Assembly (NCBI GenBank): GCA_021806615.1 | Contig: JAJZRB010000008.1 | Span: forward strand, 1 to 34,629 | DNA length: 34,629 bases | Source of the DNA: a bacterium | Lineage (GTDB): Bacteria; Patescibacteriota; Patescibacteriia; Patescibacteriales; UBA12465 | Direction of reading: 5' to 3' | Part shown: positions 13,572 through 32,415 of the stretch, one piece after another | Layout: each line of letters begins with the position of its first letter | How positions within the stretch are numbered: the stretch's first letter is position 1 | Made by a program: the position numbers and the translations under genes | The notes under the pieces: model-generated | What the model was told of the DNA's origin: nothing | Databases searched by the model: none | The model's input: only the letters and a program-made list of their open reading frames with translations

Positions 13572-15035
13572 TTAACGGCGGATGCCCGGAATAAGACGTT
13601 TAATAGTTTCTAACTTAGATTTTTTAGCGAATTGCTTGATGCGATCGCGCGCGCGCTTAGTCTTAACGAATTTTAGCCAATCGCGGTTCGGATAGGGGCG
13701 TTTTTTTTCCGTAATTATTTCCACGAAGTCGCCGTTCCTCAGTTCCTGGTCCAAGCGGCCTAGCTTGTCATTAATTATGACGCCGGCGGCATGATTTCCG
13801 ATATTAGTGTGGACGGCATAGGCAAAATCAACAGGAGTAGCTTGCTCGGGCAGTTCAAATACGTCTCCCTTGGGAGAGAAAACGAAGATCCGGTCGCGGA
13901 AAATATCTAATTTTATCTTTTTTACGAATTCGCTGGTATTCGTAATTTCCTTTTGGATTTCAATTATCTCTTTGAGCCATGCCGGAGACTGATAAGCGCC
14001 GCCTTGTTGCATCTTGTAATACCAATGCGCAGCTAGACCGTAGATGCTTTCTTCGTGCATTTCTTGGGTGCGGATTTGAAACTCGGTAGTTTTTCCTTCT
14101 GGCCCGAAGATAGTCGTATGCAGGGAGCGATAGCCATTAGGCTTAGGTACGGCGATATAGTCTTTAAAGCGATTCGGCTTCGGTTTCCAAAGGGTATGAA
14201 TGACACCTAAGGATTTATAGCAGTCGTCAACCGTTGGCACTATCAGGCGTAAAGCAAAGACATCATATATCTCATCGAATTTTCGTTCCTTTTTCTGCAT
14301 TTTTAAATAGATGCTGTATAGATGCTTGAAACGGACCTCGATCGCGCATTGGATTCCAGCTTCTTCCAATTTAGGAACCAGGATTTTTCTGATTTTTTGG
14401 AAGAATTGGTTGCGTTCAACTTTTTTTTCTACCTCATATTTATATTCTAAGTCATGATACTCTTCGGGGTAGAGAACTTTAAAACAGATATCTTCCATCT
14501 GCCATTTTAGGCGGGCGATGCCAAGCAGGCCGGCAATCGGGGCGTAGATTTCCAAAGTTTCTTGAGCGATCCTTTTTTGTTTTTCCGGAGGCAGGTTTTC
14601 TAGAGTGCGCAGATTATTCAAGCGATCGCAGAATTTTATGAAGATGACACGTAAATCGGTAGCCATCGCCAAAAACATTTTTTTCAGGTTTTCGCGATAA
14701 CGCTCAATGCCGCGATATTTGATTTTTCCGAGCTTGGTTACGCCCTCTACTAACATCGCGGTTTCCGGTCCGAAAATGGTTTTTATCTCTTCCAAAGTGT
14801 GGCTGGTGTCTTCCGGGACATCATGCAATAAGCCTCCGGCCACTGTTGCGGCGTCGGCTTTGATCTCGGCCAGAGTGTAGGCAGTATGGAGGGGATGCTG
14901 GATATACGGCTCTCCGCTTTTACGGAGTTGGCCGGCATGAGCGGCATCGGCGAATTCAAAGGCTAACTGCAGGATAGTAACGTCAGCCCCAGGATGATTT
15001 TCTTGGAATTTTTTGATGACCCGCTCAATAGTCAT
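13572..15035 (-). CDS. RelA/SpoT-family (p)ppGpp synthetase/hydrolase, HD-SYNTH-TGS architecture without C-terminal ACT region
   Basis: HD domain LRKSGEPYIQHPLHTAYTLAEIKAD...GGLLHDVPEDT...FIKFCDRLNNLRTL; synthetase RFKHLYSIYLKMQKKERKFDEIYDVFALRLIV...KDYIAVPKPNGYRSLHTTIFGPEG; TGS VFSPKGDVFELPEQATPVDFAYAVHTNIG. Ends shortly after the TGS at 487 aa. Confidence 0.95.
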   Translation of the reverse strand: MTIERVIKKFQENHPGADVTILQLAFEFADAAHAGQLRKSGEPYIQHPLHTAYTLAEIKADAATVAGGLLHDVPEDTSHTLEEIKTIFGPETAMLVEGVTKLGKIKYRGIERYRENLKKMFLAMATDLRVIFIKFCDRLNNLRTLENLPPEKQKRIAQETLEIYAPIAGLLGIARLKWQMEDICFKVLYPEEYHDLEYKYEVEKKVERNQFFQKIRKILVPKLEEAGIQCAIEVRFKHLYSIYLKMQKKERKFDEIYDVFALRLIVPTVDDCYKSLGVIHTLWKPKPNRFKDYIAVPKPNGYRSLHTTIFGPEGKTTEFQIRTQEMHEESIYGLAAHWYYKMQQGGAYQSPAWLKEIIEIQKEITNTSEFVKKIKLDIFRDRIFVFSPKGDVFELPEQATPVDFAYAVHTNIGNHAAGVIINDKLGRLDQELRNGDFVEIITEKKRPYPNRDWLKFVKTKRARDRIKQFAKKSKLETIKRLIPGIRR

Positions 15036-15065
15036 ATACCTTTGTTCTTTTTTTATCTTTTATGA

Positions 15066-15071
15066 TATAAT
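15066..15071 (+). promoter_or_regulatory. Possible -10 element (TATAAT) upstream of the pilin-fusion/surface gene run
   Basis: TATAAT at 15066-15071 in the AT-rich divergent intergenic region, with a weak TTGTTC at 15042-15047 (18-nt spacer). Confidence 0.35.
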
Positions 15072-15131
15072 AAAAGCATAATAATTATACCATAATAAGC
15101 CTGATTTAAAAATTTTTTCGGCTTGCTCCCC

Positions 15132-17834
15132 ATGACTAAAAAAAATAAATTAATTGTTTTAATTTTTAGTTTTTTAGGAGTGATTATAGCGGCTAATTTT
15201 GCTTTAGCGGCTGATTTCGGTTTGGGAGCGGTCAATAACGGTTTGGGCGGCTCTTTGGCCGCTACCGATCCGCGCGTGGTGGCCGGACGCGTCATTCAGA
15301 TAGCCTTGAGTTTTTTGGGAGCGATCGCGGTTTTACTCATTATGTACGCCGGGTTTCTATGGACCAGTTCTGGAGGCGACGAAGAAAAGATAACGCGCGC
15401 TAAAGCGATTTTACGGAACGCCATTATCGGGTTAGTGATTATCTTATCGGCTTGGGGTATCGCTACCTTCATTATTTCCCAGCTTATGAAAGCGACTGGT
15501 GGCGAAGGCGGCGCGGGTAATTTTAACGGCGGCGGCAGCGGATTTTCCAATCCTGGCGTCGGAGCGATCGGCGCCTGTTCAATAGAGAACACTTATCCCA
15601 GCAATGGGCAATCTGACGTACCGCGCAATACCTCTATTATGGTCAGTTTCAAAGAAGAGGTGAAAAACGATACCCTATGCCTTGATAGTGCCGGCATAAC
15701 CTGTGCCTGTAACAATACGACTTGCAATAAGATCAACCCTGTAGCTATCCGTCTTTATAAGACTGATTTAGGGGACGCTTGTTCTGGCGCTTCTTGCCCC
15801 AATCCCAATGCCAATATTACCGATGTCTCAGTGAATATAGCTAGCGGCAACAAGACTCTGGTCTTAACTCCTCTGAGCGCTTTGGGCTCGGCTAATGGTA
15901 ATACGCCTTATTCCATCAAATTGACTAATCAGGTCAAGAAGCTGGACGGCTCTTCCATGTTTAAGAATTGCGGCGCGGATTACGCCCAATGGGATTTCAC
16001 CGTTAATAGCAGTTTTGATCTGACCCCGCCGATTGTGTCTCCGGCCGGAATATTCCCCTTGCCTGATAATGAAAAAGATATTTATCAGCAGATAACTCCA
16101 GCCCAGGCGGCGAGCGGCAAGATTACAGTCAATGCCTGCCCGAATATTTATTCTGCCGCTAAGATAATTTCCATCACGCCAGTCGGATTAAGCCCCGCCG
16201 GAGCGGCTGCTGTGCTGGATTATCACGGTACTCTTAACGGTTTCAAGATAGTCGTCCCTGCTGGCTCTCCAGATAAGGCTCAGCTATTTGATGCTAATAA
16301 TAATCCGTTAGGCATTGCCGATTTTAATACTTCCGGACAAGCCGTTTTTAAGAATTACCTGACTTTTACCAGCGTTACGCATTTGGAAGGTAATGCTTGG
16401 GATATCAGTATCAGCCCAGAACAGCTGGCCGATACCCTGACTATAAATAATACAGCCTATACTTTTGCCGCGGATGGGAACAACAATAATATCAAAGTGC
16501 CGGCTACCTGCGATAAGAACATCCAGGCTTTAAATATTCAGGCTAAGCTCAGCGGCCAGCCAGATATCAATGTTGACCGGGTATCCAATATTATTACTTT
16601 AAGCGCTAAAGTAGCCGGCCAAGCCGGCAATAATATCGCCGTTACTACGACCAATAGCGGCGCCTTGGCTATTATTCCGTTCTCAGGAGGCAGCGATCAA
16701 AAAGTGACGACGACTCCTAAAGACAAGAAAGATCGCCCGATGAATTCGGCTATCCAAATCAATTTCAGCGAAGCCATCAATCCGCTTACCATATCTGGTT
16801 CGGCGGGCGAAGTAGACAAATATATCAGAGTGGTAAATGCTAACGCCTCTAGCAGCCCAGCCGGTACTGTTTGCAGCAATAATGCCGATTGCCGGTCTTA
16901 TAAATGTGAGAATAATTCCTGTGTCGGTAATTATTTGGGCGGTAATTTCATGGTCAGTAACGGTTATCGGACCGTAGAATTCTTGTCGGATAGGGAATGC
17001 GGCCTGAATGGCTGCGGCGAGAAGATCTATTGCTTGCCGGCCAATAGCCATTTATCCGTTGAACTGATGGCCGCCGATTTAAAAACCTGTAATAGCGATA
17101 TTGATTGCGCGGCGTACAGTCCATTCAAAGCTTGCTCCCCGACGCTCTTAGGCTATAAGACCTGTCAGAATCCTGACCATAAGAATTATCCGACGGCGAA
17201 CTTAGGAAATCTGGACGGAATCGTGGACGCCGCTGCCAATTCTTTCGACGGCGACCGCAGCAGCTTTGCCGACGGCCCCCTGAGCTTCTATAATGACAAC
17301 TACAGCGCGACTTCTACTGTCAATGTCGGCGGGCAAGATAAATATAAATGGTCGTTCTATATCAATGATCAGATCATGCTTAATCCGCCGCAAATCACGG
17401 CCGTCAAGCCTATCCAAGGCGAAGGAAGCGTTAATTTGGCCGATCCAGTAGAGGTTGATTTCAATGCCTTGATGTTAAATAGCACCTTACGTACCGGCAG
17501 CGCCATGGTTAAGAGCGGAACATCCACCGCCGAGCATAAATTAATAAATTTACACAGTTCTTCGTTAGTGCCGCTCGGCTACTGGGTGTTGAATGATAAT
17601 ATCGATACGCCGCCTTTAGACGGTGAACCGGACCTGACTATCGCTAAGATTTGGCACTCTCCTTTTCCTCAATCCATTACTTTCAAAGCGCAGGTCGGCT
17701 CGGGCGTTAAAGATATTTATCAGAATTGCTTCAAGCCCAGCATCGGCCCAGATTGCGCCGCGACCGCCGACCAGCCGTCTTGCTGTTTTGGCAACCCGAC
17801 GGGAGTTTTAGGAGCGGATGGCAATTGTAAATAA
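15132..17834 (+). CDS. Surface protein: signal peptide + T4SS-pilin (VirB2/TrbC-like) two-TM region fused to Ig-like (SbsA/Big_5-type) and Cys-containing ectodomain
   Basis: N-term MTKKNKLIVLIFSFLGVIIAANFALA; DPRVVAGRVIQIALSFLGAIAVLLIMYAGFLWTSSGGDEEKITRAKAILRNAIIGLVIILSAWGIATFIISQ; Big_5-like IENTYPSNGQSDVPRNTSIMVSFKEEV and TPKDKKDRPMNSAIQINFSEAINPLTI. ORF called from TTG 15123; ATG 15132 preferred. Confidence 0.85.
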   Translation: MTKKNKLIVLIFSFLGVIIAANFALAADFGLGAVNNGLGGSLAATDPRVVAGRVIQIALSFLGAIAVLLIMYAGFLWTSSGGDEEKITRAKAILRNAIIGLVIILSAWGIATFIISQLMKATGGEGGAGNFNGGGSGFSNPGVGAIGACSIENTYPSNGQSDVPRNTSIMVSFKEEVKNDTLCLDSAGITCACNNTTCNKINPVAIRLYKTDLGDACSGASCPNPNANITDVSVNIASGNKTLVLTPLSALGSANGNTPYSIKLTNQVKKLDGSSMFKNCGADYAQWDFTVNSSFDLTPPIVSPAGIFPLPDNEKDIYQQITPAQAASGKITVNACPNIYSAAKIISITPVGLSPAGAAAVLDYHGTLNGFKIVVPAGSPDKAQLFDANNNPLGIADFNTSGQAVFKNYLTFTSVTHLEGNAWDISISPEQLADTLTINNTAYTFAADGNNNNIKVPATCDKNIQALNIQAKLSGQPDINVDRVSNIITLSAKVAGQAGNNIAVTTTNSGALAIIPFSGGSDQKVTTTPKDKKDRPMNSAIQINFSEAINPLTISGSAGEVDKYIRVVNANASSSPAGTVCSNNADCRSYKCENNSCVGNYLGGNFMVSNGYRTVEFLSDRECGLNGCGEKIYCLPANSHLSVELMAADLKTCNSDIDCAAYSPFKACSPTLLGYKTCQNPDHKNYPTANLGNLDGIVDAAANSFDGDRSSFADGPLSFYNDNYSATSTVNVGGQDKYKWSFYINDQIMLNPPQITAVKPIQGEGSVNLADPVEVDFNALMLNSTLRTGSAMVKSGTSTAEHKLINLHSSSLVPLGYWVLNDNIDTPPLDGEPDLTIAKIWHSPFPQSITFKAQVGSGVKDIYQNCFKPSIGPDCAATADQPSCCFGNPTGVLGADGNCK

Positions 17835-17872
17835 TAGAAATAAATTTATATATTTTCCCAAGACTTAAAATT

Positions 17873-20800
17873 GTGTCTAACAAACTTCTTAAAAATTTCT
17901 TAGCCCTCACCTTATTACTCGGAGCTTTATTGGCGGCTCATTTTGCTTTAGCGCAAGGATTCGGTGTAAATGAAGTCAATAATGGATTGGCCGGATCTTT
18001 AAGCGCGTCCGACCCGCGAACAGTAGCTGGCCGGATAATTAATATCATTTTAGGCTTTCTGGGCGTAATCGCTGTCGGCCTTGTCAGTTATGCTGGTTTT
18101 ATGTGGCTGACTGCAGGCGGTAATGAGGAAAAGATAGAGACGGCTAAGAAGATATTAAGAAACGGATTGATCGGCCTAGCTATTATCCTGGCTTCCTGGG
18201 GCATCGCTACTTTTATTATTTCTAAATTGGGCGGCGCGACCGGGAACGGAAACGGCAGCGGTTGTTATGAGGGCCAGGTCGCCTCTTGCGGTTGCGGCGG
18301 CTCTATGGTTTGTAGCGGCGGTTCTTTCGGCGCCTGCATCGGGTCGGATTGTAATGGAAATGGCGGCGGGCCGACTAATTGTGACGCTAGCCCGAGTGCC
18401 GGCTGCCAGGCGGCCGATCAGATTTGCGCCTCTAATAAATATTGTGATCATAACGATTGCAGTTGCCGGCCGAAAGGTAATTTAGGCGATCCTTGCAATG
18501 CCAGCCCTGATAATAGCGTTTGCAGCCCGGATAATAACCGTTGCGCCGACTATCTATCCTGCAATCCGCAGACTTGCGTTTGCTATGGCCCCCCGGTTAT
18601 TACGGAAATCAGTCCGGTTGGCGGGTTTTGCCAAGAAAATATAAATAAATCATGCACTCAGGATAGTGATTGTGCCACTGCTTGTAATTTAACGACTCCC
18701 AATGGCTCTGCTAATAACTTTATCACTATCTTGGGGAAAAATTTTGGTGATTATTCAGCTACCTCCAGCAAAGTAATATTCGCTGCCAGTAGTACGCCGG
18801 TAGAGGGTCGCGCTCCTTCTAGCTTGAATCCCGCTTGTGTCAGCACTTGGCGCGACGATCAAATCGTGATTGCCGTTCCGAGTGGCGTCAGTACCGGACC
18901 GATCGAGGTGGTCAATAAAGACGGCTTGTCCGATACGACCGGAAATAGCTATGGGCCGGCTATTAATGACTTCCAGGCTAACAATATCAACCGTCCTGGC
19001 TTGTGCTATCTTGATCCTAATCGCGGCATCCTGACTTCAGCGGTCGGTTATCAGGGCATTAACTTATATTCAGGACAAGCATATTTTGGGAATTATCAAA
19101 GCAATATCAAGGCTTTGGATTCTCAATTCAATAGTCCCGCCGGTTTGGCCGGTACTTCCACTACGCCGAATATCCGAGCCGGTGATTCTGGCAGCTTTGT
19201 CCAGACGAATTTGAACGGCCATTTGGAGAAGAGCAATTATCTGCGTTTTGTTAAGGAGCCTGAACCTGGTGCCGGCCCCTATATATCTTCTTTCTATCCG
19301 ACTATCGGTAATACCGGCCAATATGTGACAATCCATGGTAGCGATTTCGGCGGCGCCCGCGGTACTTCTCATGTTTATTTCGGGAACACCGAGGCCACTT
19401 ATGATTTTCCGGACATGTGCCTTAATTCTGTCTGGAAAAACAATCAAGTGATTGTTAAAGTGCCGGCCGGTTTGGCTGACGGTTATCAGACGATCAAGAT
19501 GACAATCGGCACGACTACCATTGATAGCACAAAGTTGAATCCTAACGCCTTCCAATTCGATAAGAATTTAGATTTGAAATCTAGCCTCTGCAAGATCGAG
19601 CCAGAACGCGGTCCCGCGGCTACGCCAGTCGCTCTCTGGGGAGAATATTTCGGTCCGGTTAATGGAGAAGGCTTAGTTAAATTCAATTATGACAAGTCGG
19701 CTACCGGCACTATCAAGAAAGATGGTCGAGCCGATACGATCAAGACCGCCGTCCCCGCCGGCGCGATTACCGGTCCAGTGCGGGTTATAAATAATAGCGT
19801 TTGGGGCAATGAGCTTAATTTTTCTATCGGCGAATGTACGGCTGATTCTGATTGCGGTACGCAGATCTGCTGTCCAGTGAATACCTATAAAGCCGGGCGT
19901 TGCGCCAATACCGCGGCCGATTGTTTCATCAATATCCCTACTTCAGTCTTCGAATGGAGTTTCAGCACCAGTTTCAGCACTTCCAGCAGTCCTTTCGACA
20001 GCTGTTACGGACTAGCTAAATATTATGGCGCATGCCAGATAGGAGCGACCTGCCCGAACGTGCCCGGCTCTTGCTCTCCTTATGCCGGCGGCGGGAAGAA
20101 GATCGTCGCTGATTGTAATTATAGCTGTGCTAATTTCACTGATTGCGGTTTGCTCGGAACAGGATGCCATTATGATGCGAGCGTTGATAAATGCATCAAG
20201 AATGAACCAAGCGGCGGGTGCGATTTACCGAAACCGGGGCCGAATATTATCAGTGATCAGAAATATCCTTCCGCCATAAGCTGTAATAAAGACCAGCATT
20301 GGGAGATAAGCTTGAACTCCTCCTGCCCCGCAGGTTGGACTAAAGCGGCCAATAATAAGTGCGTAGACCTTAATTCAACCTGCACTGCGTGCTCGTCCGG
20401 CCTGAGCTGTGAAAAAATAAATCCGGCGGATACAACCGGGCGCTGCGTTTCAGTAAAACTCTGCCCGAGCGGCGCAGTCTGCGCTCAGAATTTTAAAGAC
20501 GGGCAGGATAAGTGCGTCGTGCCTGATCAGCCGACTTGTGATTGTTGCTGTACTATCGGTCAGGACGCCCAGGACTGCTGCGCTTATAAAAATGAAAAGA
20601 CCGGGATTACTGGCCAGCTTAAATGCGAGGGTACCTGCGGTTCAGATACCGGAAAAACCAGCGGCGTTACTCTCGGCAAATGCGGCGGCTGTAAAGCGGC
20701 TGGCGATACGCCAGAGGAGCGTGATGCCGCCTGTAATTGTTCTGGCCATAGCGGGCAATTCTGCGACACCAATAATGCCGAATTCCCGGACGGCGTCTGT

Positions 20801-23800
20801 ACTGATTGTTCAAGCCTACAAGGCCAAGATTGCTCCGACCATAGTAGCGTGTGCTGTCTCGACGCTAAAAAGACAGCTACGACTACCGACGATATCTGCC
20901 GCGGCGGTAACGGCCTTTTGGTCACTAGTGATAAGAACAACCCCGATTACGGCTATTGTGGTTATTATAATTGTCAGAGCCTAAATTCTACTCCTCCTGG
21001 AGATCCGGCGAAGTGCGCTTCTAGCACCCCGGTTAAGATAGGCGATTATAGCACCGTTGCATCCTGCGCTAACGATTGTAAGAACTCTGATCCCTGCGCC
21101 GGCATAACAGATATCCAGGAATGCCAGAAGCATAGCAATTGTTGCTTTGATGCTAAGAATACTACGGCGGCAAAATGCCGCCTGGGCGACGCGATTAGCT
21201 ATAGCAGCAGCGGCTATACCGGTTACTGCGCTTATTACGATTGTGCTACTAGCTATAGCAGCAGCGGCTATACCGGTTACTGCGCTTCTACTACTCCGGT
21301 AAAGCTCGGCGCTTATAGCAGTATTGATTCTTGTAATAATTATTGCGCCAATCCGCCATCCGGACCCGGGCTTTCTTGCGCCGGCCAGGCGACCTCTACG
21401 TGCGATACGACGAAATGTAATTTCGAAGGCTTCGGCTGTTATTCGGCTAACGGCCAACTAGGAGTGGTCGCGCCCGATTGCGGCACCTGTTGCTGCCAAC
21501 CAGGTTCAGCTACGGATTACTGCGCCAAGATAGATCCTAAATTGAAGTGTTTGGCCGATAAAGGCAACTGTAGCGGTGCGAGCCGCGGCCTATGTTGCGG
21601 CTGCTCGAGCGATGCCGAATGCGGATCAAAGGATACTGTCGGCTGCGCTTCTGACACTTGCTGCCAATCCCGTCCGGAAATAATCAGCACTTCTCCGGCG
21701 CATTTAGCCGATAAAGTCTGTCGCAACGCGGTTATCAAAGTCGATTTCAATTCCGGGATGGACACCGCCAGTTTTAATAGCAATGTTTTATTATTAGAAG
21801 AAAGAGACTATGTAAACGGCGTCTGCCCGACAGGCACCTTTGTCGCGAGCGGCGATTCGCTGCAGGCTATCCTGGACAGTAAAAATAAGAACTGGTTAGC
21901 TCGTCTGATAGAAAAGCTGCAGACAACTTGGTCTCAAATCGCCCGATCTTTCTCAGGCTCGGCTCTAGCCGATGCTCTCCCCAGCGCTAGTAAATTGTAT
22001 TGTGCTGTTTCTGGAACGGCTGCCGGAGAGAACAACGGCAATAATACTTCCTTAGTTTTCACGCCTCAAAGATTATTGGATCCATCCGCCAATTATTATT
22101 TAGTCGTTAAAGGCGATGAAGATTTAAATAGCAAGGCTGGAGTTCTCAGCGTATCCGAAGTCGGCTTCAACGGCCGCGGTTATGGGAACGACGCTTCTCT
22201 CAGTTCCTATACGGAAGGAGCAAATATCAAATTTAACAACCGCAGCTATAAAAATTCGCAGATTATTAAATTTACCACCTTGTCCGATCAGAGCCCATCA
22301 GCCGGAATCTGCGCTATCGATCAAGTGAAGATCGCCCCCACTTCCTATCTCTTTAAGACCGCTGACAACAGTTTGGTTGAGAATGATTCTAACGCTGGCG
22401 ACAAGACCTTCGATACGGTTAGCGATCGTGACAAGGTTTTCGTCGCTGAAGCCTATAGCGCGGACGGACAGGCCCTGCATCCGGTTACCGGTTATTTCTG
22501 GGATTGGAATTTCAGCATTAATAATTCGGCTATCGCGGCTATTTCCGCCGTATCGGCTTTGCCCCAAAATCGCGCCTTCGTTTCCGCCAAGACCGGCGTG
22601 ACCGATGGCGAGACTAAGATCAATGCCACTATCAACATGTCTCGTTTCTTGAACGGTTGTACGAGCGGAAATTGTTCCTGCCAGGGGGATAATTGCAGTA
22701 ATAATTGTTGCAATGCTTATTCTGGCGGAGACGGTTTCAATAAAGCCAGCAACCTTTACGTCTTCCTCTGCAATAATCCCTGGCCGCCAGTCGGGGTGAA
22801 TGGGGAATGGCTGCCCTGGGTTGATAATTGCCAGGGCTCTCTCGGCGGTAACTGTTCGGATTATAATTATAAATTTTATTATTGCCGTGATGCTGGCGGC
22901 ACCGGGACCCTGGATGATCTGCCGGCTATTACGAATGAAGCCGTTATCCGCGGCTTGAGCAGCAATTTTATTTGTAGCTCTGATCGCAGCCCTTGCGCCA
23001 CGCTAGATGCCGCTTGTGGCGCCGATAAGAATGGCGACGGACATCCTGACGGTTTATGCGTGTGGAATATCCTTAAGGAATCATATTTTTTCCGCGAGGG
23101 TTTGCCCTCAGGCGGCCAGATACTTGATGCTACGGATCAGAAAACAGGCGGTGCGGTTAAGGTCAGTTGGCGCTCCGCATCCGATCAAGCTAATTCCTAT
23201 AAGGTATATTATTTAAAATCTGGTCGAGGGACCATGTTAAGCCAGGAGGTCAAGGCTAGCGTCGCTTGTACGACGGCTAATGCGACTAATAACTGCAGTA
23301 CGATCATTGGCGGCTTGAACAATGATTCCCCCTATATATTCAAGGTCAGCGTTATCTCTGTTAATAAGACCGAAAGCCAGTTGTCAAATGAAAAGACAGC
23401 TACTCCTACCGATCAAACGCAGCCCATGAAGCCGGCCAATCCGCAGGGAGCTATAATCAACTCGCAGCTTAGATTCTCTTGGGCCCCTAATACTGACCAA
23501 GTTTCTTTTTATCGGCTCTATCACGGGGTTATGCCCGGCCAATATGGAGAATCTTTTGATTCGGCGATTTCTTCGGCTAGCCTGGCGTTTTCTCTCGATC
23601 AGTTCCCGGCCGGAGCTAATTATTTTGCCCTGTCCGCTCTGGATGATTATAAGAATGAAAGCGTTAAATCGGGCGAGGTATATATGCAGAGCGGTTATCC
23701 CGACACTATCACTATCGGTACTCGTGAATATGATCATCTGACTAGCGACAATTGGTGGTATAAGGCGTCCGGTTTAGCGGACACTCCGAATGGCCGTGCG

Positions 23801-24025
23801 TGTTTGGTAAAATTAAACATTGATCCGGCAACCAAGAAAGCCGTTTGCGACAATAGCGCTATCGGCACCAGCACGGCTTGGTTCAGCGGCAATATTAAGA
23901 TAAACACTGACGCGAACGGCAGTTATCCTTATTGCTTGACTACCCAGTGTGGCGCCATGATTAACTCTAGCAAATGCCGCTGGTCTAGCGGCGTCTGGTC
24001 CGATCAATGTTATATATATAATTAG
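17873..24025 (+). CDS. Giant (2050 aa) surface protein: T4SS-pilin-like N-terminus, three IPT/TIG-like domains, Cys-rich modules, Big_5-like domain, two FN3-like domains, conserved six-Cys C-terminal domain
   Basis: GTG start. N-term DPRTVAGRIINIILGFLGVIAVGLVSYAGFMWLTAGGNEEKIETAKKILRNGLIGLAIILASWGIATFIIS. IPT-like ISSFYPTIGNTGQYVTIHGSDFGGARGTSHVYFGNTEA. Dense CC/C repeats. FN3-like GAVKVSWRSASDQANSYKVYYLKS...LNNDSPYIFKVSVISVNKTESQLSNEKTATPTD. Confidence 0.88.
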   Translation: MSNKLLKNFLALTLLLGALLAAHFALAQGFGVNEVNNGLAGSLSASDPRTVAGRIINIILGFLGVIAVGLVSYAGFMWLTAGGNEEKIETAKKILRNGLIGLAIILASWGIATFIISKLGGATGNGNGSGCYEGQVASCGCGGSMVCSGGSFGACIGSDCNGNGGGPTNCDASPSAGCQAADQICASNKYCDHNDCSCRPKGNLGDPCNASPDNSVCSPDNNRCADYLSCNPQTCVCYGPPVITEISPVGGFCQENINKSCTQDSDCATACNLTTPNGSANNFITILGKNFGDYSATSSKVIFAASSTPVEGRAPSSLNPACVSTWRDDQIVIAVPSGVSTGPIEVVNKDGLSDTTGNSYGPAINDFQANNINRPGLCYLDPNRGILTSAVGYQGINLYSGQAYFGNYQSNIKALDSQFNSPAGLAGTSTTPNIRAGDSGSFVQTNLNGHLEKSNYLRFVKEPEPGAGPYISSFYPTIGNTGQYVTIHGSDFGGARGTSHVYFGNTEATYDFPDMCLNSVWKNNQVIVKVPAGLADGYQTIKMTIGTTTIDSTKLNPNAFQFDKNLDLKSSLCKIEPERGPAATPVALWGEYFGPVNGEGLVKFNYDKSATGTIKKDGRADTIKTAVPAGAITGPVRVINNSVWGNELNFSIGECTADSDCGTQICCPVNTYKAGRCANTAADCFINIPTSVFEWSFSTSFSTSSSPFDSCYGLAKYYGACQIGATCPNVPGSCSPYAGGGKKIVADCNYSCANFTDCGLLGTGCHYDASVDKCIKNEPSGGCDLPKPGPNIISDQKYPSAISCNKDQHWEISLNSSCPAGWTKAANNKCVDLNSTCTACSSGLSCEKINPADTTGRCVSVKLCPSGAVCAQNFKDGQDKCVVPDQPTCDCCCTIGQDAQDCCAYKNEKTGITGQLKCEGTCGSDTGKTSGVTLGKCGGCKAAGDTPEERDAACNCSGHSGQFCDTNNAEFPDGVCTDCSSLQGQDCSDHSSVCCLDAKKTATTTDDICRGGNGLLVTSDKNNPDYGYCGYYNCQSLNSTPPGDPAKCASSTPVKIGDYSTVASCANDCKNSDPCAGITDIQECQKHSNCCFDAKNTTAAKCRLGDAISYSSSGYTGYCAYYDCATSYSSSGYTGYCASTTPVKLGAYSSIDSCNNYCANPPSGPGLSCAGQATSTCDTTKCNFEGFGCYSANGQLGVVAPDCGTCCCQPGSATDYCAKIDPKLKCLADKGNCSGASRGLCCGCSSDAECGSKDTVGCASDTCCQSRPEIISTSPAHLADKVCRNAVIKVDFNSGMDTASFNSNVLLLEERDYVNGVCPTGTFVASGDSLQAILDSKNKNWLARLIEKLQTTWSQIARSFSGSALADALPSASKLYCAVSGTAAGENNGNNTSLVFTPQRLLDPSANYYLVVKGDEDLNSKAGVLSVSEVGFNGRGYGNDASLSSYTEGANIKFNNRSYKNSQIIKFTTLSDQSPSAGICAIDQVKIAPTSYLFKTADNSLVENDSNAGDKTFDTVSDRDKVFVAEAYSADGQALHPVTGYFWDWNFSINNSAIAAISAVSALPQNRAFVSAKTGVTDGETKINATINMSRFLNGCTSGNCSCQGDNCSNNCCNAYSGGDGFNKASNLYVFLCNNPWPPVGVNGEWLPWVDNCQGSLGGNCSDYNYKFYYCRDAGGTGTLDDLPAITNEAVIRGLSSNFICSSDRSPCATLDAACGADKNGDGHPDGLCVWNILKESYFFREGLPSGGQILDATDQKTGGAVKVSWRSASDQANSYKVYYLKSGRGTMLSQEVKASVACTTANATNNCSTIIGGLNNDSPYIFKVSVISVNKTESQLSNEKTATPTDQTQPMKPANPQGAIINSQLRFSWAPNTDQVSFYRLYHGVMPGQYGESFDSAISSASLAFSLDQFPAGANYFALSALDDYKNESVKSGEVYMQSGYPDTITIGTREYDHLTSDNWWYKASGLADTPNGRACLVKLNIDPATKKAVCDNSAIGTSTAWFSGNIKINTDANGSYPYCLTTQCGAMINSSKCRWSSGVWSDQCYIYN
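21196..21287 (+). repeat. Short near-tandem direct repeat (two perfect 38-bp copies, period 54 bp = 18 codons) inside the 2050-aa gene
   Basis: tagctatagcagcagcggctataccggttactgcgctt at 21196-21233 and 21250-21287; encodes SYSSSGYTGYCA twice. Confidence 0.95.
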
Positions 24026-24066
24026 CCGGGGGCGAAAGCCAAGGCCGCAGAGTAAATATTTATTAT

Positions 24067-27000
24067 ATGGGAAAAAATAGATTTAACTTGATCATCTTCA
24101 TATCTTCCGTATTTTTATTTTTATCTTTCTTGCAGCCATCCCAAGCGCAGTATTCTTCTAGTGGATTTATAGATCCCAACAGTCCAGATGCGATCGCGGT
24201 CAGAATAGTGCCTAATCCTAATCATTATAGCATCGCGCGTTGGTACGAAAGCCAAGGTTTCCAGGGGTCGCCGCAAGCGCTATTAGTCGACGGTTATGAG
24301 GCGATAAGAGATGGCCGGACAGTCTATGTCAATGCGGCTAACATCAATCAAGACAGCCATACCATTTACACTAATATTTATTTGATTTCTTATAATCAGG
24401 ATTCGGCGCCTAATACCGTTGATATTCTCGGACAGATAGTGGCGCATTGGAAATTCAATAATAATTTGACCGAAAACTATTCGCCTAGCTGTTCTATCTC
24501 ATCCCTGAGCTGTTCTAGCGATGCCGATTGTCCGAAGGATACCGCCTGCGCTACGACAGGCGTAGCTTCCAGCTCCTGCGTCTTGAAAGCCGCCAAGAAT
24601 TGTTTGGTGGACGCGGATTGCCCGACAAACTTTTTTTGCAATAGCCTCAAGTCTCAGATCGCTAGAGATTTGCAGAGAGTCGGACGCTTAGAAGAGATGA
24701 AAGAGGCGCTGTTCAATTTTAAAAAAGTCAATAATCATTATCCATCTTTAGAATCCGGCACCTATTTAGCTGGCAACAGCGTTTCGGTCTGGCCGAGCTG
24801 GGGACAGATATTATTATCTAATTTAGCCATGCCCCAGAGCTTTACCGATCCTATAAACCGTCTAGGCGCTTGCCCGGGTTATGACGCCGCCACCTGTTGG
24901 GACGCGGTTAATAAGAAATTTTTTGCCGATCAATCCGCGAATTCCCGATCTTTGAAGCTGCCGGCCGGGAGCTATGCTTTAGCCTATTCTAGCGATTCCA
25001 ATGGTTCGGCCTATAATTTATGCGCCATTTTAGAAAGTTATTCTAATGATTATTCCACGAGCGGTTATCATTTTTCGCCTAATGACCCGGCCGATTACCT
25101 GTGTCCGGTAGCCGGAGTAATAACTGGTGGCAAGATAGTCAATACTCCGCCGCGACTGGTTGATCAATCGTTAGTCGGCGAGATTAATCAGCCATTTAAT
25201 GGTTATATCAAGGTTGTTGATCAAGAAAATAATCCTTTATCCTGGACCCTTAACACGGCGGCCAATAATTGGCTGGCTGCCGGTTGGAGCGCGGCGCCTA
25301 TCTTGCAAGATACGACTAATCCTAACCAAAAGAAAGTTTATGCGCAGAAGGCCGGTCAGGCTGGAAATTACAATATTACCTTGACTGTCAATGACGGCCA
25401 AGGCGGAGTTTTGAGCACTTCTACGCCGATTAAGATCCTCTCTTCAATGATTTCTATCGAAGCGGATAACGGCGAATACGTGGCCAGCCTAGCCTCTCCT
25501 TTTAATTATAGTTTTTCTTTCGCCGGCAATAGCCTTTCCGCCTCCTCGTATTCGGTCAACAAAATAAGCGGCCCTTTTGACTTATTAGCCACTTTAACTA
25601 GCCGCCAGGAAGTCGTGGATACTATTGGCAGCCATAAATATAAGGTGACGTATAGCGGCAATATTCCTACCGTCCATAAATTTTATCAGGATACAGATTT
25701 CAAATATAATATCCAAGTTAACGACGGGCATGGGAACGCCGCTAGCAAGACTTTCATTATCACTGTCAAGCCAGAAAATCCGATTCTAGATTTCAGTTGC
25801 GCTAATGCCGCGCGCATCAACGCTAATTATTCTTGCACGCTGGGCCCTTATCAGCAGAGCGGCTATAATCTGAGCTATTCGGCCATCGGATTATTGCCCG
25901 GGTTCTATTTAACCGCTTTCGGATCCAGCCAAGGCCTAGAGGGTAAATCATCTTCGGCTACATCTTCTCATGTGCAGATAAAAGTGGTTAATAATTATGG
26001 CGCTTCTTCCACGAGAGCCCTGGATTTTAAGATTGATAATTATTGCGGCGACGGAGTAAAACAGGCTCCGAATACTGAAGGCCGCGGCGGCGCCAATAAT
26101 GACGGCTATGAAGCTTGCGACGGTAGCGCCGGCGTGACCAGCCTCGTCGCCTCTAGCAGCATCAGCGTCCAATATGGCTGCGCCACTACCGCCCTTACGC
26201 CGCGTCCCTATCCGATTTTGACGACCGAAGAATGCATCTTCCTATCGCCGGCTAAAGGAGGAGGTTATTGCGGCGACGGCTATTGCCAGTCTAAGATCGG
26301 CAACACCAATATGGAAAATTGCACTAACTGCTTTGACGATTGCTGCGGCACCGGCAGCGGCAATTGTACGCCTAATTGCGATAATAAAGCTTGCGGGAGC
26401 GATGGTTGCGGCGGATCCTGCGGCGTTTGCGGCGCCAAGCAGACTTGCAGCGGCGGCAATTGCGTGAATATTTGTACTACGAAAGACGATTGCAATGATC
26501 TGAACCCTTGTACCGATGATATTTGCAACGGCGGCTTCTGTTCTCACAGCGACAATAATACTAATTTCGCCTTCTGCGTCGGGTCAACTTTCTACGATGC
26601 CTGCACCGCCTCATCATCCGTCCCTTGCAGCAATGGCAAGTGCACCGTCACCCCTAAAAAGACTTGCAGCGGCGGTAAATTCGGAGCCTGCGCCAGCGCA
26701 GACCCCCGTTTGGCATATTGTGTTGGAAAATGCGAGGGACAGAATGACAATTGTACCAATATCGGATGCACCAGCGTCGGCAGCCAGTGCGGAGCCTGTA
26801 TCAATACCGGTAATGGCAGCGCTTGCTTGTCCGGCGGCAATAAGGTCGAAAGCAAATCCTGCACCGATTTCCTCGGCTGGCCCTCAGGCAGTTATTATGG
26901 CAACGTATATTGTTATAGCGACTGCAGCGGTTATGACACCTCCTCCTGCACGCCCAATGTTTGCACATCGACTAACCCCGACGTCCCATCAGGCTGTTAT

Positions 27001-27288
27001 TGGTATCAAGTGCCTGAGTCAGAAGATAGCCATTTGACCCCGGGGGTTACTTGCATGGTGAAAATGAATGTGGATTCTAACCACCATATTATCTGCGATA
27101 ATAATGAGGCTAACGGCAGCGCCCAGTGGTTCAAGGGGTCCATCGCTAAAGACAAGGGTTATGACGGTAAGACGAATAAGGTAAAAATCTGTTCGGTTAC
27201 CGGTTGTACCGATACGGTTAATCCTAATAAATGCCGTTATTATAACGGTTTATGGTCCAACCATTGTTACGTTCATAAGACTTGGTAA
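24067..27288 (+). CDS. Secreted Cys-rich multidomain protein (1073 aa) with pseudopilin-like head segment, cadherin/Ig-like region, EGF-like Cys modules, and shared six-Cys C-terminal domain
   Basis: Signal peptide MGKNRFNLIIFISSVFLFLSFLQPSQAQ. RDLQRVGRLEEMKEALFNFKKVNNHYPSLESGTY (type II pseudopilin-like). NTPPRLVDQSLVGEINQPFNGYIKVVDQENNPLSWTL...NYNITLTVNDGQGG. CNDLNPCTDDICNGGFCSH. Confidence 0.82.
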   Translation: MGKNRFNLIIFISSVFLFLSFLQPSQAQYSSSGFIDPNSPDAIAVRIVPNPNHYSIARWYESQGFQGSPQALLVDGYEAIRDGRTVYVNAANINQDSHTIYTNIYLISYNQDSAPNTVDILGQIVAHWKFNNNLTENYSPSCSISSLSCSSDADCPKDTACATTGVASSSCVLKAAKNCLVDADCPTNFFCNSLKSQIARDLQRVGRLEEMKEALFNFKKVNNHYPSLESGTYLAGNSVSVWPSWGQILLSNLAMPQSFTDPINRLGACPGYDAATCWDAVNKKFFADQSANSRSLKLPAGSYALAYSSDSNGSAYNLCAILESYSNDYSTSGYHFSPNDPADYLCPVAGVITGGKIVNTPPRLVDQSLVGEINQPFNGYIKVVDQENNPLSWTLNTAANNWLAAGWSAAPILQDTTNPNQKKVYAQKAGQAGNYNITLTVNDGQGGVLSTSTPIKILSSMISIEADNGEYVASLASPFNYSFSFAGNSLSASSYSVNKISGPFDLLATLTSRQEVVDTIGSHKYKVTYSGNIPTVHKFYQDTDFKYNIQVNDGHGNAASKTFIITVKPENPILDFSCANAARINANYSCTLGPYQQSGYNLSYSAIGLLPGFYLTAFGSSQGLEGKSSSATSSHVQIKVVNNYGASSTRALDFKIDNYCGDGVKQAPNTEGRGGANNDGYEACDGSAGVTSLVASSSISVQYGCATTALTPRPYPILTTEECIFLSPAKGGGYCGDGYCQSKIGNTNMENCTNCFDDCCGTGSGNCTPNCDNKACGSDGCGGSCGVCGAKQTCSGGNCVNICTTKDDCNDLNPCTDDICNGGFCSHSDNNTNFAFCVGSTFYDACTASSSVPCSNGKCTVTPKKTCSGGKFGACASADPRLAYCVGKCEGQNDNCTNIGCTSVGSQCGACINTGNGSACLSGGNKVESKSCTDFLGWPSGSYYGNVYCYSDCSGYDTSSCTPNVCTSTNPDVPSGCYWYQVPESEDSHLTPGVTCMVKMNVDSNHHIICDNNEANGSAQWFKGSIAKDKGYDGKTNKVKICSVTGCTDTVNPNKCRYYNGLWSNHCYVHKTW

Positions 27289-27315
27289 TTTAAATAGTCA
27301 GTTAATATTATAGCT

Positions 27316-27633
27316 ATGACTAAGAAAAATAAAATCATTCTGGCTTCATTAGGATTGATTCTCCTGGTTCTCGTATTCGTTTTCATCCGGCTTATCGCCC
27401 CGGCTAATAAAATATCCAGCCAGCCTACTTCTGGCGCGGTTGTCCCGGAATTCATGACCGCGCAAGAGAAGGCCAAGCTCGGCCTGCCGCCCGAACTTAA
27501 AGCGCAGATTATAAATAGGAACGGTAGCGGCGATATCACTGTCTATAAAGTCATTAAGAGCGATCAAGATATTGTAGCCGATCCGAATAAAATATCCCCG
27601 ATTAATCCGCCGCAAGAGACTCCGGCCAGATAA
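27316..27633 (+). CDS. Small single-TM membrane-anchored protein
   Basis: 105 aa; MTKKNKIILASLGLILLVLVFVFIRLIAPANK followed by a hydrophilic tail. Same strand and tightly spaced with neighbours. Confidence 0.65.
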   Translation: MTKKNKIILASLGLILLVLVFVFIRLIAPANKISSQPTSGAVVPEFMTAQEKAKLGLPPELKAQIINRNGSGDITVYKVIKSDQDIVADPNKISPINPPQETPAR

Positions 27634-27704
27634 TCTTAGCCCGAACTGGCCAAGCTTGCCGTTATTAGCTATAATTAAGATGCCTAATAAGTAAAAAGAA
27701 AAAT

Positions 27705-28475
27705 ATGTTTAATGATTTAAACAATCCTAATAGCCAAGGACATCCGGCAGTAGATGACATTTTTGCTGAAACTGACAAAGCGTCCGGAGGGGCGTCATCC
27801 GGGAATATTAATTCATCTAATTCCGGCATTGAGGCCAAAAGAGTCGGGCTAACCGCTACGGACGGAACGGTAGAAGAAATTTCCGAGAGAGCTACAGGCA
27901 ATAAATGGTTCAAGATAAGTTTAATCGCCGTTATCGCGGCTATCGTTATTTTAGGATCTTATTTGGTTTACAGTAAATTTCTTAAAGCTAGCCCGGATTT
28001 GAATGCTAATACAATGAATTCAAATGTAAACACCGCAGCGCCGGTGGCTAATAATAATCCGACTCCAGCGCCGGCCGCCCCAGCCGCTTCTAATTCCGGC
28101 TCGTTCGTGACTCCGACCGGAGAAAGCGCCGCCACCGGGAGCTTGGAAACTATCCCGTCCATTCCCGGAGTCAACGCTCCGGCCACTTCTAGCTTGGCGG
28201 CTACTACTTCCGGCGATGTCGTTACTTCCAGCCCCGACGCTTTGATTGACTCTGACAATGATGGCTTGACCGATGCAGAAGAAAAGGCGCTTGGCACCAA
28301 TATTAACGTGATTGATACTGATAACGACGGTTTGAGCGATTATGAAGAAGTAAAAATATACCATACTAACCCTCTTAGCGCCGATACCGACGGCGATGGT
28401 TATTTGGACGGGGCAGAGGTGAAAAACGGCTATAATCCTAATGGCCCCGGGAAATTAGTTAAGCCTCTTAATTAA
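27705..28475 (+). CDS. Single-TM protein with Ala/Pro/Ser/Thr-rich linker and C-terminal TSP3-type Ca-binding repeats
   Basis: TM KISLIAVIAAIVILGSYLVYSKFL, low-complexity linker, then DSDNDGLTDAEEKALGTNINVIDTDNDGLSDYEEVKIYHTNPLSADTDGDGYLDGAEVKNGYNPNGPG. Confidence 0.85.
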   Translation: MFNDLNNPNSQGHPAVDDIFAETDKASGGASSGNINSSNSGIEAKRVGLTATDGTVEEISERATGNKWFKISLIAVIAAIVILGSYLVYSKFLKASPDLNANTMNSNVNTAAPVANNNPTPAPAAPAASNSGSFVTPTGESAATGSLETIPSIPGVNAPATSSLAATTSGDVVTSSPDALIDSDNDGLTDAEEKALGTNINVIDTDNDGLSDYEEVKIYHTNPLSADTDGDGYLDGAEVKNGYNPNGPGKLVKPLN

Positions 28476-28507
28476 GCATTTCAGGTTTATTGATAAATTT
28501 CAGATTT

Positions 28508-28702
28508 ATGTTGGTTAATAATGATAACAAAGTGCCAGCGCGTTCTCGCGCTTTTGGCATTAAACAGGCGGCACCGCGCTTATTCTTGAGCCTGCACACT
28601 ATGCCGCAGACTGCCGATAGCCATTTTAAGAAATGGCTATTTTTGGGATTGCTTATTTTTGGCCTAATGGCTCTTATCGCTTTCTTGATTTTTTGGCAGT
28701 AG
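28508..28702 (+). CDS. Small protein with C-terminal TM helix (tail-anchored-like)
   Basis: ORF 28490..28702 (alternate ATG 28508): HFKKWLFLGLLIFGLMALIAFLIFWQ at the extreme C-terminus. Lies between two surface genes on the same strand. Start codon uncertain. Confidence 0.45.
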   Translation: MLVNNDNKVPARSRAFGIKQAAPRLFLSLHTMPQTADSHFKKWLFLGLLIFGLMALIAFLIFWQ

Positions 28703-28721
28703 CATTATCTCGTGGCAACTT

Positions 28722-29741
28722 ATGTTCAGGAAAAAAAAGAAAATTAAACCAGAAACGGCGTTAGAGGACGCGTTGAATCAGGAAATGATCGTCCATAATA
28801 TGCCGAAAGACCCCAAGTTAAGCGGGGCTTATTCTAGCGGCTCTTCGCCTATTTCTGCTAATGAAGCCGCTCCGCCTTCAGAAAGCCAGAAAAATCCAAC
28901 TAAGTCCCGGTCTAATTTCAAGGCTGTGGGATTTATAATCATGGCTTCCGGGGTAGTGGTTATCGCCGCCCTAGTTTATCTAAGTTATCGTTTCATTATC
29001 GCTCCGGCCGCTCAGGATAAAACCCCTAATATGCCGATCGCCGCCGATAATGGCAAGTCGGCCACGACGGTTCCGATTACGTCAGATTTAGCTTCTACCA
29101 CCGAGCTATCAACGGCCACGCCAGCGGTCGTAGATCTAGCCACAACGACTGTCGCGACCTCTAGCGAGAAAATAGCGAGCAGCACCAATCCTTTATTCCC
29201 GGATAGCGATTATGACGGCTTAAATGACGGAGAAGAAGCCATTTTAGGCACTTCCCCCACAATGAACGATTCAGATAGCGACGGCTATTCTGACTTTGCC
29301 GAAGTAATCAGCGGCTATGATCCGTCTGGTAGCGGGAAAATCAGCGCTAATGCTAATTTAGCCAGCTATACTAATAAGACTTTCAATTACGATATATTGT
29401 ATCCTAAGCTTTGGCCGATCCAAGCCTTGAATGATAATGCCACCGTTATTTTTAATGCTCCCGATAACTCTTTAATCCAAATTTCCGTCCAAGATAACCC
29501 CGATCAAGCCAGCATTTTAGATTGGTATGAGCAGTCTTTCCCTGGCACGACCGTGACTTATGATCAGGTCCGCAGCACCTATAGTTGGGAAGGGATCATG
29601 GGAGAAAGCGGGCTTAATTTTTATATTACCGATAAGAATCGGAAAAACATCATAGTCATTTCCTATATTCCGGCCGTGGAGGGCCGCATCGCTTATCCGA
29701 CCATTTTCCAGTTGATGATCAATTCTCTATTTATTAAATAA
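28722..29741 (+). CDS. Single-TM protein with TSP3-type repeats and C-terminal PsbP-like globular domain
   Basis: TM AVGFIIMASGVVVIAALVYLSYRFII; FPDSDYDGLNDGEEAILGTSPTMNDSDSDGYSDFAEVISGYDPSGSGK; then YTNKTFNYDILYPKLWPIQALNDNATVIFNAPDNSLIQISVQDN..., a pattern common in PsbP-like domains. Confidence 0.8.
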   Translation: MFRKKKKIKPETALEDALNQEMIVHNMPKDPKLSGAYSSGSSPISANEAAPPSESQKNPTKSRSNFKAVGFIIMASGVVVIAALVYLSYRFIIAPAAQDKTPNMPIAADNGKSATTVPITSDLASTTELSTATPAVVDLATTTVATSSEKIASSTNPLFPDSDYDGLNDGEEAILGTSPTMNDSDSDGYSDFAEVISGYDPSGSGKISANANLASYTNKTFNYDILYPKLWPIQALNDNATVIFNAPDNSLIQISVQDNPDQASILDWYEQSFPGTTVTYDQVRSTYSWEGIMGESGLNFYITDKNRKNIIVISYIPAVEGRIAYPTIFQLMINSLFIK

Positions 29742-30504: not shown

Positions 30505-30621
30505 TTATAGTCCTTATCCGTCTATATAATAAGGCGTGTTGTTTAACAAGATATTTAAGAAATTTTATCTTAAATTACATAAATAATATCCGATTTCAAC
30601 CACTAATTGTTAGGAGAAAAC

Positions 30622-32415
30622 ATGAAAAATGTTTTATCGTTTCTGTTCGTTTTTGTTTTATTATCGCTGAATTATTCTAGAGCGCAAGTCAGTCAGATTA
30701 CCGCCCTAGATTCGATTTCAGTTGAGCTGGATGCGTCAGCCCCGAGCGCTAATCTCGTGAGTAACGACCAGACATTATTAGCCGGCATCGATTGCTATGC
30801 CGTCAAGATAAATAATTGGTCCAGCCATGATATTGCTGTCGGCGGAACCGTTTTCAGTTGCAATAGCCAATATGCGGGAGCCAGGCTAGACATGAATAAT
30901 ATCTATGTTACCGCGGGGAATGTATACATCGGTAAAATTAACTCCTGGTCTCTTAATAGCGCCGACAATAAACTAGGCTTTTATTTTCCTAATTTGACGG
31001 TCGTCGGCAGCCATTCCGCAGTAGTCCTGCATTTGCGCTCTGATCTCTATGGTTGGGGAACATTTAAGTTCTTGCTTATGGATCTGGCGCTGGCAGACGT
31101 TCAAACATCTGAAAATAAAGTCCTTCATTTCAGTCAGAATTGGGGAGCGGAGTTATTGGGTTATGATATTGCTCTGGCGAATACTGACCACCTAAGATTG
31201 AGTCTCGGTGTCTATCCTAATGGATGGGACCAAGCTTTTGAAGATACTCTCTATGTTCTGCCCGGGCAGTACGTCTATTCCTCCGCCTATTGCGAAATGG
31301 ACCGGGCGAACTATATCTCGCAATCTATCAGCGCCTTCAAATCCGGCGTGATAATCAGTTCGAATCTTTTGGGTTTTGGAAATTTCAATTTTTCCCAACC
31401 CTGGGCTCAGTATTTGGAAGAATTAGGACACGTGACTTTTGCCTCCGATGATCTGAGCCAGACAGTCTCTTGGACGGCCAGCTCGACCTCTAACGGCATT
31501 GATTATTTCAATCTGAGCTGGGTTTCTGGTTATAATACTCTGGCTTTAGGAGGAGCCGCCAACATTCATTTCTATGTTGAAGGGGTGCTGTATAATCAAT
31601 TTTGCGCCGCGCCCGTGTCTTCCTATATCAGCCATAACCGGGTATTAAAATCAGTAGACGGAATCCTGGGCGATTATAATGGAGACGGTCTCGTCCTTGA
31701 AAACGACGCGGACGAGATGCAGCAGGTTTATACTACATATGGGGGTTTTATGGATTATTATTCCAAGGATGGCCATAATGCCGGACGAGCCTCTATCCTG
31801 TTCGACGGCGCGACGCTATCGGATATTTTCTTGATCCGCGTTTGGCTGAATGACCCGAATGATCGTCTGGTGAAAGATCTGGGTATCGGACAGCCGATGT
31901 CAGCTAGAACCAAGCCGATACAGGCAGCATATTCTAAGACGATATCCGGCAGCCAGATCGTAATAAGCACGAAGGCTTTCGCTGTCCGGATTTCCGCGAT
32001 ATTGCCATCCGGCAAATTATGGAGCAGTTCTTCCCAGGTCAGCGGCGATAAGGCTATATTCACTGTTCCGGACCAAAGCTTGGATTACCGGGTAGAAGCT
32101 GTCAGCCTAGCTGCCGGACTCACCGACGTTGGAAATTCTGCCAGACTGCCGGCTGATTTCCAGCTTGATCAGAATTATCCTAATCCGTTCAATCCTTCCA
32201 CATCAATCAGTTACTCTCTGCCGGAGAGAGCGTTCGTTACGTTGAAAATTTATGATATTCTCGGAAGAGAAGTCGCCAGCTTAGTGAATGAAGAAAAACA
32301 GGCTGGCCGTTATCAGATAAGATTCGATGCTAGTAATTTAGCCAGCGGAACCTATGTCTATAGGTTAGCCGCCGGTAATTTTATACAAACAAAAAAAATG
32401 GTACTCATGAAGTAA
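30622..32415 (+). CDS. Secreted protein with dockerin-like/EF-hand segment and T9SS type A-like C-terminal sorting domain
   Basis: SD aggagaa then ATG 30622; signal peptide MKNVLSFLFVFVLLSLNYSRAQ; GDYNGDGLVLENDADEMQQV; C-term FQLDQNYPNPFNPSTSISYSLPERAFVTLKIYDILGREVASLVNEEKQAGRYQIRFDASNLASGTYVYRLAAGNFIQTKKMVLMK. Confidence 0.9.
   Translation: MKNVLSFLFVFVLLSLNYSRAQVSQITALDSISVELDASAPSANLVSNDQTLLAGIDCYAVKINNWSSHDIAVGGTVFSCNSQYAGARLDMNNIYVTAGNVYIGKINSWSLNSADNKLGFYFPNLTVVGSHSAVVLHLRSDLYGWGTFKFLLMDLALADVQTSENKVLHFSQNWGAELLGYDIALANTDHLRLSLGVYPNGWDQAFEDTLYVLPGQYVYSSAYCEMDRANYISQSISAFKSGVIISSNLLGFGNFNFSQPWAQYLEELGHVTFASDDLSQTVSWTASSTSNGIDYFNLSWVSGYNTLALGGAANIHFYVEGVLYNQFCAAPVSSYISHNRVLKSVDGILGDYNGDGLVLENDADEMQQVYTTYGGFMDYYSKDGHNAGRASILFDGATLSDIFLIRVWLNDPNDRLVKDLGIGQPMSARTKPIQAAYSKTISGSQIVISTKAFAVRISAILPSGKLWSSSSQVSGDKAIFTVPDQSLDYRVEAVSLAAGLTDVGNSARLPADFQLDQNYPNPFNPSTSISYSLPERAFVTLKIYDILGREVASLVNEEKQAGRYQIRFDASNLASGTYVYRLAAGNFIQTKKMVLMK

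Follow-up and report, generated by a model that had tools for sequence, protein, structure and literature searches.

The window analyzed here, the whole stretch of 34,629 bp, is one entire contig (C4; JAJZRB010000008.1) of an 847-kb, 95% complete patescibacterial (Candidatus Falkowbacteria) genome, whose class we take to be the one that GTDB calls ABY1. Its central feature is a run of seven consecutive plus-strand genes at 15132–29741, separated by 19–71 bp, which we label g1–g7 and which encode predicted surface proteins, the first two beginning with a pilin-type hairpin. The same gene order occurs in named relatives (Candidatus Falkowbacteria and Buchananbacteria), and ABY1 is the class name used in PMC12102498 and PMC11809585. 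The locus and its borders comprise:

13572–15035, minus strand: rel, divergent from g1
15036–15131: intergenic region from which rel (–) and g1 (+) diverge, presumed to hold the promoter of the locus
15132–17834, plus strand: g1, 900 aa from ATG (903 aa from an upstream TTG)
17873–24025, plus strand: g2, 2050 aa, GTG start
24067–27288, plus strand: g3, 1073 aa
27316–27633, plus strand: g4, 105 aa
27705–28475, plus strand: g5, 256 aa
28508–28702, plus strand: g6, 64 aa
28722–29741, plus strand: g7, 339 aa
29783–29828: hairpin resembling an intrinsic terminator on both strands, separating g7 (+) from clpP (–); energies of –23.4 and –20.2 kcal/mol, with z-scores of –6.9 and –5.7

The original prediction, made from the letters of this DNA, had described most of this layout correctly: the seven same-strand genes, a signal peptide or transmembrane (TM) segment in every product (in all seven we find either a TM segment or a hydrophobic stretch at the N terminus), the bidirectional terminator, and proteins of 2050 and 1073 aa. 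Its 903 aa for the first protein is reached only from the TTG. It had also placed the genes between two convergent boundaries; g7/clpP is indeed convergent and is the sole such boundary, whereas rel and g1 diverge from a shared upstream region. No Rfam family or tRNA was found in the window.

Across the genus and family, as far as the contigs extend, the order of genes is hisS-rpsU-rel(–)-g1-g2-g3-g4-g5-g6-g7-clpP(–)-secD. Other families of the order have rel-g1-g2-(g3)-g5-g7-ybeY-dgkA-ftsA-ftsZ, and (rel)-g1-g2 is kept in most of 77 further loci, those of Buchananbacteria included. The other orders carry lepB-hisS-rpsU-g1-giant-g5-g7-ybeY-dgkA-ftsA, in which the giant is a protein of 2,900–4,700 aa (open frames extend to 4,734 aa) that holds the hairpin, the g2 core, and the g3 head in that order; giants of ~3,240 aa align collinearly to g2 (hairpin, TIG domain, and a region that we call CRDAG) and to g3 (residues 41–341). 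Because the giant is a single protein in the class loci inspected outside the order, the separate g2 and g3 of Falkowbacteria appear to be the derived state. Of the 287 class genomes, 203 had a g1 match, ~17 of these being marginal (E above 1e-5); among the 256 good genomes the number was 191. In a sample of the phylum, g1 was found in 31 of 33 class genomes, one of which (G232) is a marginal match to the giant and not to g1, compared with 4 marginal matches among 347 genomes outside the class. Some relatives could not be scored for g5, since their sequence is N at its position; an apparent minus-strand open reading frame (ORF) in place of g5 proved, where inspected (L049 and L057), to be such a stretch of N. 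The arrangement is not a matter of chance, since dozens of genomes share it, and we conclude that g1-g2-g5-g7 is the vertically kept, class-wide core of ABY1. The original prediction had proposed one functional module and had named an absence of synteny in relatives as one result that would overturn it; synteny was found in genus, family, and class. Together, the g1–g7 order in genus and family, the class-wide core, and the g2–g3 fusion provide strong evidence, by sequence comparison, that the locus is one functional module.

Some loci depart from the common arrangement. Three in Falkowbacteria have a g1 homolog with recA on one side and a PilT/GspE-like gene and a 90-aa gene on the other (L115 5183–7873, L144 9590–12901, and L164 9569–11483), and in L124 and L135 g1 sits between rel and recA. 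Close to its C terminus, one Buchananbacteria giant (L168 12466–22200) also has a domain resembling laminin G and a weak von Willebrand A domain.

The first two proteins share their architecture at the N terminus. In g1, a signal peptide (~1–26) and a T4SS_pilin hairpin (54–114; T4SS, type IV secretion system) precede a rod of immunoglobulin (Ig)-like domains, with Big_5 at 149–290, further beta domains, and 26 Cys in the 903-aa reading; the AlphaFold2 model (pLDDT 80) has the hairpin helices at 47–78 and 84–122 and a chain of beta domains behind them. In g2, a signal peptide and a hairpin (50–115) lead into Cys-rich modules, a TIG domain (469–562), a variable Cys-rich middle (~751–1200), Big_5 (1266–1322), the conserved CRDAG region (~1540–1745), two fn3-like domains, and an additional six-Cys C terminus (~1940–2050), for a total of 130 Cys. 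Both hairpins exceed the 26.6-bit cut-off of the VirB2-like Pfam family T4SS_pilin (PF18895; g1 40.9 bits, g2 31.6 bits), and they are 67% identical over 95 aa, in agreement with the pilin-like start that the original prediction had seen in both. In the VirB2 family both ends of the hairpin lie outside the cell while a basic loop lies inside; the ectodomains of g1 and g2 should accordingly face outward. Assignment as a type IV pilus pilin was ruled out, since Pfam places the hairpins in the VirB2/T4SS type; read by eye, the N termini of g1–g3 show no prepilin motif (class III leader), and their leaders are Sec-type. A sequence search of the PDB gave no match with g1 and only fn3 and TIG relatives with g2.

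The host genome contains 12 T4SS_pilin hairpins, several of them arrayed. The copy closest to those of g1 and g2 is a free 128-aa pilin of the same subfamily, 53–61% identical to g2. Genes for two other hairpin proteins (377 and 485 aa) alternate with apparent 2-oxoacid oxidoreductase subunit genes (L014 5934–9423; genome G000, contig C6, ~45.9–49.4 kb), and the larger protein includes a fused VanY/M15-type D,D-carboxypeptidase. As a separate observation, g1 carries at ~435–505 (window 16435–16650) the motif DTLTINNTAYTF...AKVAGQAGNNI, which we take, as an unconfirmed likeness, to resemble a small module of phage tail and surface proteins.

The third protein, g3, has a signal peptide, no further membrane segment, and 62 Cys. 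It consists of a conserved head (~41–130), a pseudopilin-like globular domain (~195–270), a cadherin/Ig-like stalk (~360–660), and a hypervariable Cys-rich end (~780–1073). By hhalign, the globular domain matches those of pseudopilins at 96.4% and two independently collected pilins at 92.8%, while 20 column shuffles gave at most 1.4%; it has neither a prepilin leader nor a membrane helix. The conserved N-terminal profile of g3 matched strongly in 30 of 33 class genomes, and outside the class it gave marginal matches only, mostly to one stretch and mostly in short ORFs. Six of the seven out-of-class loci inspected showed type IV pseudopilins; out-of-class pseudopilins at L197 427–1338 and L198 209–2293 apparently have two tandem globular domains, the second being the most g3-like. 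The C-terminal end (780–1073) is 11–17% identical within the genus, with large indels, compared with 27–75% for the rest of the protein. Fold matches of the stalk include cadherins, an RTX adhesin, and surface-layer (S-layer) chains.

The original prediction had further linked g2 and g3 by a six-Cys C terminus. The similarity is real (E = 3.9e-13, 32% identity, no other copy in the genome); among relatives, however, the module is found in a few g3 proteins only, and most g2 orthologs stop near residue 1937. We therefore rejected it as an old link between the two genes. It is a recent, lineage-specific local duplication and thus no evidence for an old module.

The remaining four proteins are small or medium membrane proteins. 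One N-terminal TM segment and no known domain were found in g4, and g6 has a C-terminal (tail-anchor) TM segment; both were detected at their positions in the genus and family only, and even within the family some genera gave no match for them, making them family-level additions to the locus. g5 has an N-terminal tail with a conserved MFNDL...VDDIFAETD motif, a TM segment (~71–89), a linker, three TSP3 repeats (82.1 bits, E = 2.4e-23, above the cut-off), and no Cys. g7 has an N-terminal tail with a ...MP motif, a TM segment (~69–87), a conserved C-terminal domain (~205–339), and likewise no Cys. The original prediction had assigned TSP3 repeats to both; in g7 we found a single weak match (19.2 bits against a cut-off of 25), with the Asp pattern retained in relatives. 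TSP3 repeats bind Ca2+ as a family. Both N-terminal tails are presumed cytoplasmic and the remainder of each protein outside. Across several orders, a short VDDIFAETD-like motif is kept in the tails of 14 g5 sequences, and the Pro of the ...MP motif is invariant in 16 g7 tails.

We also looked at the secretion and disulfide-formation context of the locus. A VirB4-type ATPase is present in 37 of 40 relatives and adjoins a PrgI-family gene, the arrangement described in PMC12102498; the host genome has such a chromosomal VirB4-PrgI system, with a RadA-like gene near virB4, and also a DsbA-like protein. The g1–g7 locus and virB4 are genetically unlinked. In many genomes of the order virB4 takes the form of two genes (~226 and 630–640 aa; L091 1–1489 and L092 12833–14071), and virB4 of the host genome is cut by a contig break. 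For the pilus association raised in the original prediction, the VirB2/T4SS type of the hairpin, the chromosomal VirB4-PrgI genes, and the free pilins of this hairpin subfamily are suggestive; the hairpins are, however, not those of a type IV pilus, and since one of the 12 copies is fused to a VanY-type carboxypeptidase, a hairpin alone is no proof of a pilus.

We are highly confident that the products of the locus form one complex, and no less confident that they are exposed at the surface; the envelope anchoring proposed in the original prediction agrees with the presence of hairpins, signal peptides, and TM segments. From sequence and predicted structure we infer that attachment of these bacteria, which depend on hosts, to a host or partner cell is probably, though far from certainly, the main role, and the adhesin-like folds predicted for the g3 stalk (cadherin, RTX adhesin) and for the chain of beta domains in g1 speak for it. 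In such a complex, g1 would be a short rod on the cell surface and g2/g3 a long stalk, stiffened by disulfides and assisted by Ca2+, of which the hypervariable Cys-rich end (the g3 C terminus and the g2 middle) would touch the partner cell. Because other orders have g2 and g3 fused into a single polypeptide, and g3 lacks a membrane anchor of its own, g3 presumably works with g2. The two proteins with conserved cytoplasmic motifs, g5 and g7, would tie the complex to the inside of the cell or brace it there. The locus might fill the place of a PrgB-like adhesin beside a monoderm-type T4SS, and some g1/g2 hairpins could possibly be inserted in the base of the T4SS pilus, although we regard a direct partnership with the T4SS as doubtful. 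The most complete form of this reading is a pilus-derived attachment machine of ABY1, in which giant adhesins built onto VirB2-type hairpins would be anchored by them in the membrane or a filament and coupled inward through the cytoplasmic motifs of two TSP3 proteins; we put it forward tentatively, as rather unlikely to hold.

Several observations weigh against attachment as the role of the locus. g2 and VirB4 are not significantly associated in their presence across 40 genomes (34/3/2/1, Fisher p = 0.28), and three genomes with g2 have no VirB4 match. Searches for a VKOR or DsbB partner in disulfide formation found neither in the genome, while control searches gave matches. No g1 match was obtained in 84 of the 287 class genomes, and the loci of G232 and G336 have a giant without g1. 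The g3 model is of moderate quality (pLDDT 70). The hairpin fused to the carboxypeptidase suggests that such hairpins may be plain membrane anchors, and the class-wide conservation of the locus near ftsA/ftsZ also suits an envelope-structural role.

These last two points lead to the strongest alternative, an envelope scaffold, which we judge unlikely: g1–g3 would form an S-layer-like or wall-spanning coat, g5 and g7 would link it to the division or growth machinery, and the hairpin would be a mere anchor, as on the carboxypeptidase. The fixed place of the locus near housekeeping genes (ybeY-dgkA-ftsA in most of the class) and the conserved cytoplasmic motifs of g5 and g7 are consistent with such a coat, as are the S-layer chains that g1 (8opr) and g3 (4aq1) matched by fold and a weak S-layer chain match of the g3 head, the one hit of its PDB sequence search (E = 0.07). 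The fold matches are, however, generic matches to Ig chains (8opr has a probability of 0.08), the scans gave no match to an S-layer family, and the hypervariable end of g3 and the variable lengths of the proteins suit contact with something that itself varies.

A second alternative would place the locus at the tip of a VirB2-type T4SS pilus as an accessory, the g1/g2 hairpins co-assembling with small pilins under VirB4 and placing the ectodomains on the pilus or at its base. The hairpins do belong to the subfamily of the free small pilin, the genome has both a small pilin array and a VirB4-PrgI operon, and pilin arrays are essential in Saccharibacteria (PMC10633639). Nevertheless, the separation of the locus from virB4, the nonsignificant co-occurrence, and the hairpin–carboxypeptidase fusion make such a tip quite improbable, and a C-terminal load of 2,000–4,700 aa on a VirB2 filament has no precedent known to us. 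Least probable is an uptake receptor for DNA or other macromolecules, with g1 and the giant serving competence and g3 retaining, in its pseudopilin-like domain, a remnant of a DNA-uptake filament: ABY1 T4SS loci do contain comF, recG, and radA (PMC12102498), with a RadA-like gene near virB4 here, and some Falkowbacteria have g1 flanked by recA and a PilT-like gene, but that neighborhood occurs in few genomes, no DNA-binding domain was recognized, and the domain make-up is adhesin-like.

The pilin hairpin family, the Ig, TIG, and fn3 domains, and the TSP3 repeats are already known; we found no description of the g1–g7 locus in the open-licence literature. g1 and g2 have the signal peptide and two-helix hairpin of the VirB2-like T4SS pilins of Patescibacteria (PF18895; PMC12102498). 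Whereas those pilins are small, free, and often arrayed, the hairpin here makes up the first 6–13% of a 900- or 2050-aa protein encoded away from virB4. The likeness to PrgB-type adhesins (of monoderm, FATA, conjugative T4SSs) lies in the proposed role of surface adhesin beside a T4SS; Pfam and NCBIfam scans of g1–g3 found no PrgB domain or wall-sorting anchor, and these proteins are instead hairpin-anchored or, for g3, secreted. PrgB-type adhesins are reported as absent from Patescibacteria, in which T4SSs and pilin arrays have been mapped (PMC12102498). The giant FhaB-like proteins of Patescibacterium danicum (PMC11809585) come from the same class and are likewise giant surface proteins with a proposed role in adhesion, but they are reported to lack conserved full-length homologs, whereas the g1–g7 locus is syntenic and class-wide; the two are set apart by the published description only. 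Compared with type IV pilins and pseudopilins, g3 holds a similar globular domain but in a secreted protein that lacks both the prepilin leader and the membrane helix. With its three repeats, g5 resembles bacterial TSP3 membrane and cohesion proteins (TSP3_bac, PF18884), differing by the cytoplasmic VDDIFAETD motif and a fixed partnership with the giants.

Beyond the locus, a 602-aa protein with a C-terminal T9SS-type (type IX secretion system) sorting domain (Por_Secre_tail, E = 1.2e-11) is encoded between clpP and secD (window 30607–32415, plus strand) and is missing at the clpP/secD junction in relatives. The host genome has three T9SS-type sorting domains, and 15 of 40 genomes of the order have at least one. 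A search for SprA gave no match, but its control searches were silent as well.

The published genetics considered here on the attachment of Patescibacteria to their hosts come from Saccharibacteria, where a T4SS, pilins (arrays), and adhesins are essential for the epibiotic growth of one species (PMC10633639); T4SS pilins are also among the highly expressed patescibacterial genes (PMC10936435). For ABY1, the locus supplies a small, positionally fixed protein set (g1, the g2/g3 giant, g5, and g7) as candidates for the missing attachment component, with a pilin hairpin, a disulfide-rich stalk, and a variable end as candidate attachment features. The same proteins could serve as markers, or as targets of antibodies, when uncultivated ABY1 cells are imaged on their hosts. 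If the attachment machine proposed here is real, ABY1 would possess a class-defining attachment organelle built from parts of two pilus systems.

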